Positions 24,759 to 43,460 of a stretch of 64,000 bases of DNA are shown piece by piece. The DNA is taken from NCBI RefSeq assembly GCF_003319125.1, contig NZ_QOHG01000007.1, positions 124,001 to 188,000 on the forward strand. Reading direction: 5' to 3'. The stretch is from Blastococcus sp. TF02A-26. GTDB lineage: Bacteria; Actinomycetota; Actinomycetes; Mycobacteriales; Geodermatophilaceae. The position numbers and the translations under genes are program-made. The notes below the pieces were generated by a model. It saw only the letters and a list, made by a program, of their open reading frames with translations, was not told where the DNA came from and did not search any database. Numbering within the stretch: position 1 is the stretch's first letter; every line of letters starts with the position of its first letter.

Positions 24759-26288
24759 TCAGCCGCCGCGCGCCCCGCGGTCGGCGGTGGCGCGCGCCGC
24801 CGCGGCCTCCCCCTCGGCGCCGGCCAGCCGGCTGTACCGCCGCCCGTAGACCACGTAGACGACGAACCCGAGCGCCATCCAGCCGGCGAAGCGGACCCAC
24901 GTGTCGGCCGGGAGGTTGAGCATCAGGTACAGGCAGGCCAGCGCCGAGAGGATCGGCAGGACCGGCACGAAGGGGACCCTGAAGGCCCGCGGCAGGTCCG
25001 GCCGGGTGCGGCGCAGGACGATCACCGCGATCGAGACGAGCACGAAGGCGAACAGCGTGCCGATGTTGACCAGCTCGGCGAGCGTGCCGATCGGCAGGAA
25101 GCCCGCGAGCAGGGCCACGGCGACACCCGTGGCGATGGTGATGCGGTAGGGGGTGCCGTAGCGGTGGTGCACCACGCCCAGGCCCGGCGGCAGCAGGTGG
25201 TCGCGGCTCATCGCGAACAGGATCCGGGACTGGCCGAGCATCAGGATCATGACCACCGAGGTCAGGCCGGCCAGCGCCCCGACCGAGATCAGCGTGGAGG
25301 CGAAGTCGAGCCCGACGCTCGAGAACGCCTCCGCCAGCGGCGCCTCGGTCGAGAGCTCGGAGTAGGGGCTGCATGCCCACCACCACGAGCGACACCGCCA
25401 CGTACAGCAGGGTGCAGATCGCCAGCGAGCCGAGGATCCCGCGGGGCAGGTCGCGCTTGGGGTTCTTCGTCTCCTCGGCGGCGGTGGCCACGATGTCGAA
25501 GCCGATGAAGGCGAAGAAGACGATCGAGGCGCCGGCGATGACCCCGCCCCAGCCGAAGGTCCCCTGGGTGAAGCCGAGCAGCTGGATCAGCGGGCTGCGC
25601 CAGCCGCTCTCGCCGTCCGCGGCACCCTCCGACGGCGGGACGAACGGGCTGTAGTTCTCGGCCTCCGTGTAGAAGAAGCCGAGCACGATGATCAGCAGCA
25701 CGATGGCGACCTTGATCGCCACGATGACCGCGGTGACCCGCGAGGACAGCTTGATCCCCAGCACCAGCACCCCGGTCATCACCAGGGCGATGACGATGGC
25801 CGGGATGTTGACCGTCGCGTCCTCCCCCGCGATGGACGTCGGCAGCGACAGCCCGGCGTCGCCCAGCAACTGGTTCAGGTAGCCGGACCACCCGCGGGCC
25901 ACGGTCGCGGCACCGAGGGCCAGCTCCAGCACGAGGTCCCAGCCGATGACCCAGGCCAGCAGCTCGCCGAGGGTGGCGTAGCTGAACGTGTAGGCCGACC
26001 CCGCGACCGGCACCGTCGAGGCGAACTCGGCGTAGCAGACGGCGGCCAGCGCGCAGACGACGCCGGCGATGACGAACGAGAGCGCACCGCCGGCCCCGCC
26101 GTCGTCCGCGCCACCTCGCCGGTGAGCACGAAGATGCCGGTGCCGATGATCACCCCGACGCCGAAGACCGTGAGGTCCAGCGCCGAGAGGTTCTTCCTGA
26201 GCCGGTGCTCCGGTTCCTCGGTGTCGCGGATCGAGTCCTCGACGGACTTCACGCGGGCGGTGTTCCTGCGGTCGGCGCTGCTGGTCAC
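24759..26288 (-). pseudogene. APC-family amino-acid permease, disrupted by two frameshifts
   Basis: Conserved permease sequence is spread over two frames. 26288 to about 26092 reads RKNLSALDLTVFGVGVIIGTGIFVLTGE. From about 26090 to 25370 the next frame reads ALSFVIAGVVCALAAVCYAEFAS and EETKNPKRDLPRGI. From about 25365 to 24759 the original frame resumes with LGQSRILFAMSRDHLLPP. A base is missing near 26085-26092 and one is extra in a G4 run (C4 on the coding strand) at 25365-25368, so start and stop are in register. Without repair translation stops at 25875 after about 137 residues. The intact protein would be about 509 residues with 12-14 helices, resembling cationic amino-acid transporters. 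Real decay and sequencing error cannot be told apart from sequence alone. Confidence 0.85.
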
Positions 26289-26405
26289 GACGTCCCTCCC
26301 GGCCCCCCGGACGAGCTGCCCGTTCGTCCCGGGCAGCGTGGCACGGGTGGGCCGGACGCGCATGCCTACGCTGACCTCCCCGATCCGCGAGCGTGGAGGC
26401 GTGCC

Positions 26406-27536
26406 GTGACCGCGACCGACCCGTCCCGCGAGGCCGCGCCCGACGGGCCGTCGTCCACCGCCGGCCCTCCGGACCTGCAGCTCCCCACGACCCGTCCACG
26501 ACCGGCCGGGGCACCGCGCACGACCCCGAGCCGGCCTCCGGGTCAGGACGCCGTCGTCGACTGCGCCGTCTACGTCGACGGCCGCCGGCAGGCACCGGTG
26601 GAGCCCGGCGAGGCGCTGGCCGCCGCCGTCGAGCAGGGCGGCTACGTGTGGCTGGGGCTGTACGAGCCGACCGAGGACGAGCTGGAGTCGATCGCCGACC
26701 GGTACGGGCTGCACCCGCTGGCGGTGGAGGACGCCGTCTTCGCCCACCAGCGACCGAAGCTCGAGCGCTACGACGAGGACCTGTTCATGGTGCTCAAGAC
26801 GGCGACCTACGTGGAGCACGACCGGCTGACGGCGACCAGCGAGGTCGTCGACACCGGTGAGGTCATGGTCTTCCTCGGCGAGCACTACGTGATCACCGTC
26901 CGGCACGGCCGGCACGGCGACCTCGCCGAGCTGCGCCACCGGCTGGAGGAGCAGCGCGACCTGCTGTGCCTGGGGCCGGCCGCCGTCCTCTACGCGGTGG
27001 CCGACCTGGTGGTGGACACCTTCGTGGAGGTCGCCGACGCCGTGCAGGACGACGTCGACGAGCTCGAGGCCTCGGTGTTCAGCCCCGAGCGCACCGACGA
27101 CATCGGCCGGCTGTACCAGCTCAAGCGGGAGCTGATGGCGCTGCGCCGGGCGGTCGCGCCGCTGGAGGTGCCGCTGCAGAAGCTCTCCGAGCGGCAGATC
27201 GACGTCGTCCCCGACGCGATGCGCTCCTACTTCCGCGACGTGCAGGACCACGCCATCCGCGTGCGTGACGCCGTCACCGGGCTGGACGAGCTGCTGTCGT
27301 CGATCCTGCAGGCGTCGCTGGCCCGGACCCAGATGGCCGACAACGAGGACATGCGCAAGATCTCGGCGTGGGCGGGCATCATCGCCGTCCCCACCGCGAT
27401 CGCCGGGATCTACGGGATGAACTTCGAGTTCATGCCGGAGCTGCACTGGCGGATCGGCTACCCGCTCGTGCTGCTGCTGATCGCCGTCTCCTGCATCTGG
27501 CTGTACCGCGGCTTCAAGCGCAACGGCTGGCTGTAG
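26406..27536 (+). CDS. corA: CorA-family magnesium/cobalt transporter
   Basis: 376 residues. A long soluble N-terminal funnel (50-300) is followed by two C-terminal helices and the signature YGMNFEFMPEL. GMN is the CorA selectivity motif between the helices, and a basic tail FKRNGWL follows. Moves Mg2+ (or Co2+/Ni2+) down its gradient. The first 45 residues are Pro/Thr-rich and poorly conserved. GTG at 26406 is preceded by GGAGG 7 nt upstream. Divergent from the broken permease; a 61-nt hairpin follows 16 nt after the stop. Confidence 0.94.
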   Translation: MTATDPSREAAPDGPSSTAGPPDLQLPTTRPRPAGAPRTTPSRPPGQDAVVDCAVYVDGRRQAPVEPGEALAAAVEQGGYVWLGLYEPTEDELESIADRYGLHPLAVEDAVFAHQRPKLERYDEDLFMVLKTATYVEHDRLTATSEVVDTGEVMVFLGEHYVITVRHGRHGDLAELRHRLEEQRDLLCLGPAAVLYAVADLVVDTFVEVADAVQDDVDELEASVFSPERTDDIGRLYQLKRELMALRRAVAPLEVPLQKLSERQIDVVPDAMRSYFRDVQDHAIRVRDAVTGLDELLSSILQASLARTQMADNEDMRKISAWAGIIAVPTAIAGIYGMNFEFMPELHWRIGYPLVLLLIAVSCIWLYRGFKRNGWL

Positions 27537-27552
27537 CGGGCGAGCACAACCA

Positions 27553-27613
27553 AGGCATGGGAAGCCATCCCCACGTCTGACGGCCGTGGACATGGGGATC
27601 GCTTCCCATGCCT
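27553..27613. repeat. 61-nt hairpin repeat, copy 1
   Basis: Two 25-nt arms around an 11-nt loop, 23 of 25 positions paired. The left arm starts AGGCATGGGAAGC and the right ends GCTTCCCATGCCT. A second copy lies at 28647-28707 with the same arm and loop lengths. Both have ACAACC just before and CGAC just after. Copy 1 sits after corA and before the DUF559 gene. It could be a terminator or part of a dispersed repeat family. Confidence 0.85.
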
Positions 27614-27714
27614 CGACCCCCGTGTCGAGTTCTCGGCTGTCCATCAGCGCGCCGGTTGTCCACAGGTCGAGTCGACCACGCCGGCCCGAGGACGACGTCG
27701 GTGAGGCTGCCGCG

Positions 27715-28638
27715 GTGCAGTGGCGTGAACACATCAACGAGGTCCTCGAGCGCAACGGCGGTCTGGCGACTCGGCGGGAACTGCTCGCCCACGTCCCGGA
27801 GACCGTCGTGGACGGCTACATCGGACGCCGGGCGCTCCGCCGGCTCTTCCCGCACGTGTACTGCCGCGTCGCCGAGCCGACGACTGACGACCTGCTGCTC
27901 CGAGCTGCCCTCCGCCATGCCGGCCCGGTCGCCGCGCTGAGTCACACGACGGCGCTGGCGGTGTGGGGCCTCGTGGCCTTCCGCCGTCCGGTACACCTCA
28001 CTGTCGACCACGCCGTGCGCAGAGCCGGAGCGACGGATCTCGTCGTGCATCGTCGGCTGCGCTTCCGCCCCGACGGACCACAGTGCGTCACGAGGAACGG
28101 GTTTCGGGTCACCGCCCTGCCGCGGACCCTGGTGGATGCCTGGCCGCTGCTGCCGGTCCCCGACCGTCGTCCACTCCTCCTCGACGCCGCCCGCCGCGGT
28201 CTCGTCACCGCGCGGGGGCTCGAGCAAGCCCTCGCGGAGCGGCCCAACGTCGGCGGTCATCGCGCGTTGGCGCAGGCCATCGATCTGATCGCGGACGGGT
28301 GCCAGAGCGAACTGGAGGCGTTGGGTGTCCTGAACGTCTTCCGGCACCGCTCGCTCCCCCGGAGCGTCGGACAGCACCGCGTCGTCCTACCGCAGGGCGC
28401 CGTCCGGCTCGACCGGTCGTGGCCCGAGGTGAAGCTGGCCGTCGAACTGGACGGCGCGAAGCACCACACGTCCCCCGAGGACCGACGTCGTGACCTGGCT
28501 CGGGACACGGCTCTCGCCGCACTGGGGTGGGTGGTGCTCCGCTTCACCTACGCCGATGTCGTGCGCGACCCGGACTTGGTGCGCCGCCGCGTCCTCGAGG
28601 TGTACGCGGCGCGTGCCGCCCAGCTTCGCGTGGGCTGA
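27715..28638 (+). CDS. DUF559 (Vsr/PD-(D/E)XK-like) protein with AbiEi-like N-terminus
   Basis: 307 residues from the GTG at 27715, preceded by GTGAGG with about 8-nt spacing. An earlier in-frame GTG at 27586 lies inside the hairpin repeat and is unlikely. The N-terminus (1-70) resembles the winged-helix AbiEi antitoxin domain (ERNGGLATRRELL). The C-terminus (225-300) has VKLAVELDGAKHH, RDTALAALGW and VVLRF, the pattern of DUF559 restriction-like folds. Such genes are multicopy in actinobacteria; the substrate is unknown and no partner toxin or methylase adjoins. Bracketed exactly by two hairpin repeats. Confidence 0.8.
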   Translation: MQWREHINEVLERNGGLATRRELLAHVPETVVDGYIGRRALRRLFPHVYCRVAEPTTDDLLLRAALRHAGPVAALSHTTALAVWGLVAFRRPVHLTVDHAVRRAGATDLVVHRRLRFRPDGPQCVTRNGFRVTALPRTLVDAWPLLPVPDRRPLLLDAARRGLVTARGLEQALAERPNVGGHRALAQAIDLIADGCQSELEALGVLNVFRHRSLPRSVGQHRVVLPQGAVRLDRSWPEVKLAVELDGAKHHTSPEDRRRDLARDTALAALGWVVLRFTYADVVRDPDLVRRRVLEVYAARAAQLRVG

Positions 28639-28646
28639 CAACCGCC

Positions 28647-28707
28647 AGGCATGGGAAGCGATCCGCACGTCGGCGGCCTCAAGACGCGGGGATCGCTTCC
28701 CATGCCT
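28647..28707. repeat. 61-nt hairpin repeat, copy 2
   Basis: Same architecture as the copy at 27553: 25-nt arms, 11-nt loop, 23 of 25 paired. The mismatches fall at different arm positions from copy 1. It starts 8 nt after the DUF559 stop and ends 10 nt before the rsmI stop, so it could terminate both convergent transcripts. The shared ACAACC upstream overlaps the DUF559 stop codon. Confidence 0.85.
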
Positions 28708-28717
28708 CGACAGCCGG

Positions 28718-29557
28718 TCAGGACCCCTTCGCGGCGACGACGGCGTCGTAGACGGTGCGGCGCGGCAGCCCGGTGCGGACGACGACGGCGCGGATCGCGT
28801 CCTTGCGGGTGGCGCCGGCCGCCTCCTCCGCCGCCACCTCCGCCGCCAGCTCGGCGGGGGTGAGCGGGATGGCCACCTCGGGCGCCCCGCCCACGACGAG
28901 CGTGATCTCCCCGCGCACCCCCTCGGCCGCCCACTCCGCCAGCGCCGCCAGCGGACCGCGCCGGACCTCCTCGTAGGTCTTGGTCAGCTCGCGGCAGACG
29001 GCGGCGGGCCGGTCGGACCCGAAGGCCGCGGCGGCGTCGGTGAGCGCGTCGGCCAGCCGGTGCGGGGACTCGAAGAAGACCATCGTCCGCCGCTCGCCGG
29101 CCAGCGCGGTCAGCGTCGACCGCCGCTCGCCGCCCTTGCGCGGGAGGAACCCCTCGAAGCAGAACCGGTCGACGGGCAGCCCGCTGACCGCCAGCGCCGT
29201 CGTCACCGCCGACGGGCCGGGGACCGAGGTCACGTCGATGCCGGCGTCGATGGCAGCGCGGACCAGCGTGTAGCCGGGATCCGAGACCGACGGCATGCCG
29301 GCGTCGGTGAGGAGCAGGACGGTGGCCCCGCCGGTGAGCGCCTCCAGCAACCCGGGCAGGCGGGCGCGCTCCACCGACTCGTGGAAGGTCACCACCCGTC
29401 CGGTGAGCGTCACCTCGAGGTCGGTGGCCAGGCGGTGCAGCCGGCGGGTGTCCTCGACGGCGAGGACGTCGGCGGTCTCCATCACCGACCGCAGCCGCGG
29501 GCCGACGTCGCCGGGCTGCCCGAGCGGCGCCCCACCGAGCACCAACCGTCCACTCAC
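28718..29557 (-). CDS. rsmI: 16S rRNA (cytidine1402-2'-O)-methyltransferase
   Basis: 279 residues. SAM-dependent tetrapyrrole-methylase fold; 2'-O-methylates C1402 in the decoding centre. Conserved: ADVLAVEDTRRL, TDAGMPSVSDPG, VPGPSAVTTALAVSG, FEGFLPRK, FFESPHRL, CRELTKTYEE. GTG at 29557 gives VSGRLVLGGAPLGQPGD; the 36-residue longer frame upstream runs into the divergent pmt gene and is non-conserved. Divergent with pmt, the usual actinobacterial pairing. Confidence 0.96.
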   Translation of the reverse strand: MSGRLVLGGAPLGQPGDVGPRLRSVMETADVLAVEDTRRLHRLATDLEVTLTGRVVTFHESVERARLPGLLEALTGGATVLLLTDAGMPSVSDPGYTLVRAAIDAGIDVTSVPGPSAVTTALAVSGLPVDRFCFEGFLPRKGGERRSTLTALAGERRTMVFFESPHRLADALTDAAAAFGSDRPAAVCRELTKTYEEVRRGPLAALAEWAAEGVRGEITLVVGGAPEVAIPLTPAELAAEVAAEEAAGATRKDAIRAVVVRTGLPRRTVYDAVVAAKGS

Positions 29558-29610
29558 GGCGTCGAGCCTGTCACGGCGGTCGGCCCGGGCGACCCACATA
29601 CCCTGTCGCC

Positions 29611-31125
29611 ATGGCGGTGCTGGCTCCCGAACGCGCGGAGTCCGGACCGCCGGCACCGCTGCCACGCCGGCGCCTGCCGGGACGACGGCTGGACCGCATC
29701 CCCCCGCTGCCCGGCGACAACCGGCTGGCCTGGGCGCTGACCGCGGTCCTCGGCGTCCTCACCCTGGCCACCCGGCTCTGGGACCTCAGCTACCCGCGCG
29801 ACCTGCTCTTCGACGAGGCCTACTACCCGCCCGAGGCGCAGGAGCTGCTCACCTGGGGCCACGAGTACAACCGCGGCTACACGTTCATCGTCCACCCGCC
29901 GCTGGGCAAGTGGCTGATCGCGCTCGGGATCAAGACGTTCGGCTACGACTCCTTCGGCTGGCGGTTCCCCTCCGCGGTGGCCGGCACGATCGCCGTCGTC
30001 GTCCTGGTCCGGCTGACCCGGCGGCTCACCGGCTCGACGTTCCTCGGGCTGCTCGCCGGGTTGCTGATGGCCCTGGACGGCTTCGCGTTCAGCCTCAGCC
30101 GGATCGGCCTGCTCGACGTCTTCCTGCAGGTCTTCGTCGTCTCCGCGGTGGCCTGCCTGGTGGTGGACCGGGACCGGGTGCGGGCCCGGGTCCGCGCGCT
30201 CGGCGAGGTGCCCCGGTCGGGCTTCCGGCTCGGTCCCCGCGGCTGGCGGATCGCCGCGGGGTTCCTCTTCGGCTGCGCGTGCTCGGTCAAGTGGAGCGGT
30301 GCGTACTTCCTCGCCGCCGCGGCCGTGCTGTCGCTGTTCTGGGACCGTGCGGCCTGGCGCGAGGCGGGCGTCCCCCGGCCCACGCTGGTGGCGCTGCGCC
30401 GTGGCCTGCCGGGGGCCGCCTGGGCGCTGGCCGCGGTCCCGGTGCTCACCTACGTCGCCAGCTTCACCGGCTGGTTCCTGGGTGAGACCTCGCAGGGCAA
30501 GGCATGGGCCCAGCAGAACCCCGACACCGCGTTCGGCTGGGTGCCGGACTCCGTGCGGTCGCTGTGGCACCAGCACGCGGAGTGGCTGGAGTTCCACAAC
30601 GGGCTCTCCTCGCCGCACCCGTGGGAGTCCGGGCCCTGGACGTGGCTGGTCAACGGCCGGCCGATCCTGCTGTGGAACCCGCAGGGCCTCACCGACTCCG
30701 CCGGCGACCAGGTGGTCCGCTACATCCTCATGGTCGGGACGCCGACGCTGTGGTTCGCCTTCGCGCCGGCGCTGCTGTGGCTGGTCTGGCGGATCGTCGC
30801 GCGGCGGGACCCGGTCGCGATCCTGGTCGCGGTCATGGTGGCCGCCGGGTGGGGGACGTGGTTCCTCAACCCCGAGCGCACGATGTTCGCCTTCTACGCC
30901 GCTCCGGTCCTGCCGTTCTTCGTGCTCGCCGTCGTCCTGGCGCTGCAGGACGTGCTCGGTCCCCCCGGCGCTTCCCGGTTCCGCCGCCAGGTGGGGCTCG
31001 GCGTGGTCTGCCTCTACGTCGGCGTCGTCGCGGCGACGTTCGTCTACTTCTACCCGGTGCTCACCGGGCAGCCGCTGTCCCACGGCGAGTGGCTGGCGCG
31101 GATGTGGTTCCCGTCATGGTTCTGA
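29611..31125 (+). CDS. pmt: Dolichyl/polyprenyl-phosphate-mannose protein mannosyltransferase
   Basis: 504 residues, GT39 family, about ten membrane helices. Transfers mannose from polyprenyl-phosphate-mannose to Ser/Thr of secreted proteins, coupled to Sec export. Extracellular loop 1 has LFDEAYYPPEAQ with the DE pair needed for catalysis, then FIVHPPLGKWLIALG. A second conserved loop reads SVKWSGAYF. ATG at 29611; no close ribosome site. The Thr-rich secreted proteins in this window are potential clients, which is inference. Confidence 0.94.
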   Translation: MAVLAPERAESGPPAPLPRRRLPGRRLDRIPPLPGDNRLAWALTAVLGVLTLATRLWDLSYPRDLLFDEAYYPPEAQELLTWGHEYNRGYTFIVHPPLGKWLIALGIKTFGYDSFGWRFPSAVAGTIAVVVLVRLTRRLTGSTFLGLLAGLLMALDGFAFSLSRIGLLDVFLQVFVVSAVACLVVDRDRVRARVRALGEVPRSGFRLGPRGWRIAAGFLFGCACSVKWSGAYFLAAAAVLSLFWDRAAWREAGVPRPTLVALRRGLPGAAWALAAVPVLTYVASFTGWFLGETSQGKAWAQQNPDTAFGWVPDSVRSLWHQHAEWLEFHNGLSSPHPWESGPWTWLVNGRPILLWNPQGLTDSAGDQVVRYILMVGTPTLWFAFAPALLWLVWRIVARRDPVAILVAVMVAAGWGTWFLNPERTMFAFYAAPVLPFFVLAVVLALQDVLGPPGASRFRRQVGLGVVCLYVGVVAATFVYFYPVLTGQPLSHGEWLARMWFPSWF

Positions 31126-43405: not shown

Positions 43406-43460
43406 CTCCGCTCGCTCGCGCTCTGCTCCCCACCGGGAGCAGAGCACGAGCGAGCCGGAG
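43406..43460 (+). terminator. Long hairpin between the carboxyltransferase and ATPase genes
   Basis: The 24-nt left arm (43406-43429) and 25-nt right arm (43436-43460) pair with one mismatch and one bulge around a 6-nt loop. It begins 5 nt after the stop. The right arm contains part of the ribosome-binding GGAGAGG of the ATPase gene, so the structure could end the operon or hide that ribosome site. Confidence 0.7.

Follow-up and report, generated by a model that had tools for sequence, protein, structure and literature searches.

A DUF559 gene of the window (the whole 64-kb stretch of DNA that was analysed) stands between two long palindromes, and DUF559 genes are associated with such palindromes, which are enriched around them, co-vary with them and show turnover of their sites. 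In our opinion, the locus is probably the 'master' unit of a selfish partnership of the REP/RAYT kind, built on an unrelated nuclease, and its palindromes would double as terminators.

The DUF559 gene and its two palindromes

The features of the locus, in window coordinates, are these:
26406..27536, + strand: corA-type Mg2+ transporter gene, left neighbour in the slot (profile match, gene calling, slot comparison)
27553..27613, no strand: upstream palindrome of the AAGC-core family, 25-nt arms and 11-nt loop, 16 nt past the corA stop
27614..27714, + strand: spacer of 101 nt from the upstream palindrome to the DUF559 start codon
27715..28638, + strand: DUF559/MTES_1575 gene, 307 aa (family profile matches; start in line with homologues)
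27715..28254, + strand: AbiEi-antitoxin-like N-terminal part, about residues 1-180 (PADLOC AbiEi 5.9e-15; Foldseek 6y8q_A, E 5.6e-6)
28309..28611, + strand: Vsr-fold nuclease-like C-terminal domain, about residues 199-299 (DUF559/MTES_1575 profiles; similarity to 3hrl and I-Bth0305I)
28647..28707, no strand: downstream palindrome of the AAGC-core family, 8 nt past the DUF559 stop, between the convergent DUF559 and rsmI-type genes
28718..29599, - strand: TP_methylase gene (PF00590), which we take to be of rsmI type, right neighbour in the slot (profile match, gene calling)

Recomputation upheld the hairpin geometry described in an earlier sequence-only reading of this DNA: the hairpins at 27553-27613 and 28647-28707 each have 25-nt arms, an 11-nt loop and 23/25 positions paired (92%), with mismatches that differ between the copies. 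They start 1094 nt apart, and most of the arm sequence is indeed common to both (80% identity in a direct comparison over 70 nt). Their RNA folding energies are -44.8 and -46.5 kcal/mol (z -7.3 and -7.8), and 0/200 shuffles were as stable. At a score of at least 18 and a loop of at most 16, the 64-kb window holds three hairpins, namely this pair and one at 43410-43455, while three first-order Markov windows gave none, even at a score of at least 15. The third of these very stable hairpins has a 21-bp stem and a 4-nt loop.

The positions and flanks ascribed to the hairpins fared less evenly. The downstream copy does begin 8 nt after the stop codon of the gene, and it ends 10 nt from the stop of the convergent rsmI-type gene. 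'Just before the gene' was loose for the upstream copy, however, as the likely start (GTG at 27715) is 101 nt past that hairpin; this spacer presumably holds the promoter of the DUF559 gene. Both hairpins also sit at the ends of the neighbours, one past the corA stop and the other beside the convergent rsmI-type stop. ACAACC precedes both window copies as claimed, but at offsets that differ by 2 nt, and it is absent from the 30 nt before the 13 other copies of the family; of the CGAC said to follow the hairpins, CG is seen by eye after the right arm in 9/15 family copies. The outer ends of the 15 copies read (A)GGCAT/ATGCC(T) and are paired in nearly all (by eye).

A stable hairpin directly downstream of stop codons, a feature of intrinsic terminators, is present here, and no T run was seen by eye after the window copies. 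A known RNA family was rejected for the hairpins, since Rfam gave nothing at gathering score over 26000-30000, only sub-threshold miRNA and snRNA matches.

The window protein matches the DUF559 profile with 39.2 bits (cut-off 20.6) and MTES_1575 with 41.1 bits (cut-off 38.2). Both profiles are matched by all 13 aligned proteins, and Y1_Tnp is not among the five families listed. E199, D233 and E244 are invariant in 13/13, and we presume that these acidic residues have a catalytic role. The C-terminal domain resembles the Vsr-fold protein 3hrl (profile E 1.4e-4; TMt 0.80, Foldseek E 0.03) and the homing endonuclease I-Bth0305I (3r3p; TMt 0.74-0.75, Foldseek E 0.05-0.06), where the structure comparison used an AlphaFold2 model with a mean pLDDT of 90.9. 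In an excerpt of PMC3710099, MTES_1575 is described as a Vsr-family REase domain. Pfam AbiEi_4 matches the N-terminal part weakly, in 4/13 proteins, and by analogy this AbiEi-like part presumably binds DNA. Since AbiEi (two repeats) and Rv2827c bind 23-bp inverted repeats, according to passages of PMC7319586, recognition of 25-nt arms by the DUF559 protein is plausible. A toxin-antitoxin reading was rejected, because no AbiEii-type toxin gene adjoins the DUF559 gene, whose neighbours are the corA and TP_methylase genes.

The corA-rsmI slot was compared in 26 genomes of the family, the window genome included. It holds a gene of the same subfamily as the window gene (subfamily I) in 12, another DUF559 subfamily in 10, where it occurs in either strand, and no DUF559 gene in 4. 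In G026 (L061) the slot without a gene carries a lone palindrome of the second subfamily's type, CCGTTGTGC...GCACAACGG (by eye). In G015 (L059) it carries a stretch that matches DUF559 residues 14-36 with 57% identity (E 3e-6, 120-nt target); this genome has no pattern palindrome and two weak BLAST matches, and a DUF559 gene has probably been lost from its slot, leaving a decayed remnant. The mobile cassette that the sequence-only reading had envisaged draws partial support from a slot that holds two subfamilies or none, but not from subfamily I being mostly present in one copy per genome. A single movable unit of 1.15 kb we reject, since the flanking copies also end corA and the rsmI-type gene and most copies are solitary. 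The palindromes look more mobile than the DUF559 gene.

Palindrome families and DUF559 loci across genomes

When the arm sequence was searched in the window genome and its relatives, as that reading had proposed, a dispersed family was found. In the assembly (4.68 Mb, 53 contigs) BLAST gave 15 copies with the AAGC core (30 matches, both strands), nearly all at gene ends. The 13 copies other than the window pair are all farther than 20 kb from each of the five DUF559 matches in the genome, so most copies frame no nuclease gene. Many copies at unrelated gene ends had been held to favour a repeat family used as a terminator, and these 13/15 do point that way; the link to DUF559 is nevertheless real and specific, and each of the two readings offered is partly right.

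A generic palindrome pattern occurs at 32 places in the window genome, 13 with the AAGC core (two of the 15 BLAST-found copies miss the pattern), 18 with TACC and one with ATCC. Two intervals between neighbours among these 32 are shorter than 5 kb, and each encloses a subfamily-I DUF559 gene: an AAGC pair frames the window gene and a TACC pair frames a paralogue on contig C15. Both subfamily-I genes of the genome are thus bracketed, each by a different dispersed family, and the two copies are 70% identical. A third DUF559 gene of this genome (L049:1418-2484, contig C11) belongs to another subfamily and has a hairpin pair with CGACGAGATCTGCACA arms. The hairpin search found no pair at the other own-genome DUF559 matches, L047 and L048. 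RAYT was rejected as partner of the palindromes, since PF01797 has no match in the genome (the control search was positive in 5/14 named genomes). Elsewhere, in G064 (contig C49, L359), two palindromes 2.0 kb apart, both located at gene ends, frame two genes that are not DUF559 genes.

The TACC core has 18 copies in the window genome (G000) versus 0/16 palindromes in the congener G001 and 0/24 in the congener G002, and among these three the TACC-flanked paralogue is found in G000 only. The second DUF559 match of the two congeners is distant (E 1.3e-62 and 1.8e-61, compared with 8.3e-162 for the C15 gene). The C15 protein is at a distance of 0.23 from the proteins of G033 and G034, which belong to other genera, versus 0.30 from the window copy; the arms that come closest to its own are those of G033 (0.19). 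On the simplest reading, we infer, the C15 gene and the TACC palindromes were acquired horizontally as a unit that seeded its own family.

Whether other copies bracket DUF559 genes had been raised as a check, and they do so beyond the two paralogues as well. Upstream and downstream flanks match each other at a score of at least 16 in 36/37 close DUF559 homologues (35 of subfamily I and two of the L049 type), as against 4/226 other genes at the same loci. The comparison covered 103 distinct DUF559 loci with a single cut-off of 16, set alongside controls; L047 reaches exactly 16.0. A cross-locus control, in which the upstream flank of one locus is set against the downstream flank of another (200 draws), had its 95th percentile at 17.0 and its maximum at 56; it is no clean null, because related genomes share arm sequence, and the control with 226 other genes was used. 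When hairpins are required on both sides, fewer loci have pairs than in the plain flank comparison. L136 (G090), the sole close homologue whose flanks do not match, carries an in-frame TAG as well.

Among more distant DUF559 loci, a flank match of at least 16 is found in 27/66, including those of Demequina (L189, L190) and several of Kribbella, and 39/66 are without a pair. The Kribbella genes at L192, L203, L206, L209 and L210 have matching flanking repeats; at L192 the repeat measures some 100 nt and has a short stem at its end. In Micromonospora there are hairpins downstream of DUF559 genes and no flank pair at 16 or above; a matching palindrome occurs at 2 to 7 places in 5/6 Micromonospora genomes, and none was found in the remaining one or in two genomes of Demequina, which have hairpins of a different sequence. 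Klenkia taihuensis and K. terrae have second, divergent DUF559 copies (L162, L163) with GGCAAGGGATCCC-type flank pairs of their own, and the similarity between the two flanks of L162 extends for some 70 nt, a sign that the copying may be recent. Also recurrent in this bacterial family, at gene ends and next to several DUF559 genes (L336, L338, L174, L175, L178, L179), is a shorter hairpin whose arms resemble GGCCCAGAAC / GTTCTGGGCC; it could be a preferred terminator or a further repeat family.

Palindrome number also goes with the gene. In 96 genomes, with subfamily I taken as present at E of 1e-100 or below, the 29 genomes with subfamily I have a median of 12 pattern palindromes and the 67 without it a median of 0; because the genomes are related, the p of 2e-9 overstates independence. 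At least one pattern palindrome occurs in 24/29 genomes with the gene, and several of the five that have none by pattern have other arm starts. Against the partnership, 20/67 genomes without subfamily I have at least one pattern palindrome and 8/67 have five or more, so the link between gene and palindrome is strong, not absolute. A reversed control pattern hit 9/96 genomes, once each; hence, single palindrome hits can be chance. The largest count was 38, and subfamily I is mostly a single gene in genomes where the palindromes run into tens. In G117, which has no close DUF559 match, a palindrome (L360) lies between Rieske-type and ABC-transporter genes, apparently at the same junction as L010 of the window genome.

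Divergence of arms and turnover of sites

Arms are 0.82-0.97 identical within a locus versus a mean of 0.67 between loci, in 13 loci whose arms were located by start motifs chosen after viewing the flanks (G008, G028 and G014 gave fewer than four arms). The dispersed copies follow their own gene: in five sets, 79/88 are closest to the flanks of that gene, whereas 18.3 are expected by label shuffling. By set, the counts are 11/11 and 16/17 for AAGC and TACC in G000, 13/20 in G033, 20/20 in G064 and 19/20 in G034, with 20 copies each taken from 33, 38 and 28 in the last three genomes and with L010 and L021 left out for want of a strict pattern match. The 7/20 copies of G033 that are closer to the flanks of another genome count against the partnership.

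Compensatory change maintains the pairing of the arms. Of the palindrome cells, 91.9% are paired, and sliding the partner strand destroys the pairing. Cells changed on both sides number 115 versus a shuffle mean of 44.6, a value that 0/500 shuffles reach; less striking are the 12 base pairs with both sides changed, a number reached by 24/500 shuffles. The palindromes were taken at length 59 with a pattern of 16 fixed bases (8 base pairs); selection makes these eight pairs invariant, and all compensatory counts are from the remaining ones.

Protein distance and arm distance are correlated in 12 genomes (r 0.76), and the partial Mantel correlation given rsmI is 0.67 (p 0.0002). Without the four g3 genomes it is 0.27 (p 0.095), which again counts against the partnership. 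In 11/11 comparisons with the window genome, DUF559 is 1.8 to 2.7 times as diverged as rsmI; RAYTs, according to an excerpt of PMC2817692, evolve faster than neighbouring genes.

Of the 88 copies, 56 are flanked by convergent genes, 30 by tandem genes and none by divergent genes, and two are inside called genes (L019 and L263, which may be calling errors, since gene calls came from a purpose-written codon-usage script). Among the 86 intergenic copies, 81 are at most 30 nt from a stop codon, and the median is 7. Being at gene ends, the copies have a position that fits a terminator role. According to passages of PMC3733652, REPs too are found chiefly where the adjacent genes are unidirectional or convergent.

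Both genomes have a palindrome at an orthologous junction in 18 inter-genome locus pairs. There the orthologous copies share an arm identity of 0.72, as against 0.84 with other copies in their own genome, and the Wilcoxon test on these pairs treats overlapping pairs as independent. Three TACC sites of the window genome are AAGC sites elsewhere (L225/L262, L228/L269, L230/L276). The lower identity between orthologous than within-genome copies, together with these switches of core, amounts to concerted change or re-insertion. Shared old sites as such are equally expected from a conserved regulon, which counts against the partnership. At the pepA junction a palindrome is present in the window genome and, degenerate, in G002, that is in 2/27 comparable loci (3/30 were not comparable); at the SPFH/sigma-factor junction it is present in the window genome alone, in 1/13 comparable loci (17/30 not comparable), and G001 and G002 have short-loop hairpins at the same place. 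We read both sites as gains of a palindrome. No target-site duplication was seen between filled and empty junctions (pepA, L061, SPFH), whose ends did not align by eye.

Explanations, known systems and meaning

In the proposed partnership, the DUF559 protein would probably recognise the arms of its cognate palindrome through the AbiEi-like N-terminal part, and the Vsr-fold nuclease domain would nick or cut there. Repair would then place copies of the palindrome at further gene ends or in place of older ones that have diverged, and such copying and overwriting would keep the copies of a genome alike and matched to the protein. Copies would survive at the 3' ends of genes because the 25-bp hairpin works as a transcription terminator, or replaces one.

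Co-evolution without movement of DNA would be expected if the DUF559 protein were a regulator that binds a 3'-end element, or cleaves it in RNA. Its AbiEi-like part does belong to a family of DNA-binding autoregulators, and sites within 30 nt of a stop in 81/86 cases and junctions shared by 18 inter-genome pairs would suit such a role. We nevertheless consider it unlikely: with 0/86 intergenic copies between divergent genes, promoter operators are unlikely, the neighbouring genes have no common theme (by eye), the paralogue came with 16 dispersed copies of a core unseen in the two congeners, sites were gained at single junctions (pepA, SPFH/sigma), and the bracketing of the DUF559 gene itself is left unexplained. 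Highly improbable, in our view, is that the palindromes are plain bidirectional terminators kept alike by ordinary host gene conversion, with DUF559 as a bystander. Such terminators would account for the position at gene ends (56/88 between convergent genes), for the short-loop hairpins of two congeners at the same SPFH/sigma place and for close pairs that enclose other genes (L359), but not for matching flank pairs at 36/37 DUF559 loci versus 4/226 other genes, for two paralogues with two families in one genome, or for a palindrome number that tracks the presence of the gene.

Another possibility is that hairpin, DUF559 gene and hairpin move whole as a transposon-like cassette, with DUF559 as the transposase and lone palindromes as footprints of excision or deletion. 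The corA-rsmI slot argues for this: 12 of 26 genomes have one subfamily there and 10 have another, the latter in either strand, and the slot holds a lone palindrome of the second type in G026 (L061) and a probable decayed gene in G015 (L059); moreover, the distance of the C15 paralogue to the window copy exceeds that to proteins of other genera. Yet most genomes with subfamily I have one copy of it while palindromes are in tens, its two copies in the window genome are only 70% identical, which gives no sign of a recent cassette copy, terminal duplications did not turn up, and the pepA and SPFH junctions suggest that lone palindromes arise where the gene never stood. We judge it quite improbable, and we return to the selfish partnership with REP/RAYT as its closest likeness.

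According to passages of PMC2817692, PMC3733652 and PMC8266576, a REPtron has a low-copy gene between two palindromes, dispersed palindromes that are mostly downstream of genes, and flanks that differ between orthologues yet stay palindromic. What we see here is similar in the bracketed gene, the dispersed gene-end palindromes, the compensated divergence of arms and a gene that evolves faster than its neighbours. By analogy with the REPtron enzymes, the DUF559 protein may bind and cleave its cognate palindrome. It differs in being an AbiEi-like part joined to a Vsr-fold nuclease and not an HUH/Y1 enzyme, there being no Y1_Tnp match in the genome. The palindromes differ as well, being about 60 nt long with 24-25-nt arms and without a GTAG tag; by eye, none of the 15 copies has GTAG or CGTC as an outer tag, and CGTC sits at the loop end of the stem. 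Copies are in tens here (at most 38 in 96 genomes), whereas REPs usually exceed 100 in the account excerpted from PMC2817692. TIRtrons are alike in that the gene lies between long inverted repeats, of which dispersed families may exist as well (passages of PMC3733652), but TIRYTs are tyrosine (HUH) transposases, unlike the AbiEi-like and Vsr-fold nuclease protein found here.

With the AbiE type IV toxin-antitoxin system the likeness is of AbiEi to the N-terminal part only, in sequence and fold; here that part is fused to a nuclease-like domain, without an adjacent AbiEii-type toxin gene. Since two features of REPtrons (the HUH enzyme and the GTAG tag) and one of AbiE (the toxin partner) are absent, we assign the system to neither. 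I-Bth0305I, of the EDxHD Vsr-fold homing endonucleases, shares the fold of the catalytic domain and the idea of a selfish nuclease gene. Homing endonucleases reside in an intron or intein and target one allele; the DUF559 gene is in neither, and its proposed target is a dispersed palindrome. MITEs are related to DDE transposases, have a target-site duplication and join both ends of the element. Here, in contrast, there is no relation to a DDE transposase, no target-site duplication was seen at the junctions compared, and each palindrome is one end of the coding unit. The likeness to MITEs, as given in a passage of PMC2817692, is that of short non-autonomous elements sharing sequence with the ends of a protein-coding unit. 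In size, the 23-bp inverted repeats of AbiEi are comparable to the 25-nt arms (excerpt of PMC7319586).

We conclude, on analogy, that the DUF559-palindrome system would work like a REPtron. A wider claim is that those DUF559 proteins which carry an AbiEi-like domain form another class of palindrome spreaders, evolved independently of HUH/RAYT proteins and unrelated to them. Each protein would specify its own family and convert palindromes genome-wide to the sequence of that family as a selfish 'terminator drive', and other branches would be found in Demequina and Kribbella, with their matching repeats around DUF559 genes, and in Micromonospora, with its dispersed downstream hairpins; this we find about as easy to doubt as to believe. 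Searches in the open-licence PMC literature found no link between DUF559 and palindromic repeats.

The spread of REP-type palindromes is attributed to HUH transposases. In this genome an unrelated nuclease family would take the place of the HUH partner, each gene having a palindrome family of its own, and this points to a kind of selfish partnership between gene and repeat that has gone unrecognised; a REP superfamily without a known partner is mentioned in the excerpts of PMC3733652. The paralogue and its family, present in one species and not found in two congeners, provide a natural experiment, and the specificity of protein for palindrome, the conversion and the spread become directly testable. 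DUF559, whose function is unknown, would thereby gain a proposed role, and the terminators would be an instance of elements that may be selfish in their own right.
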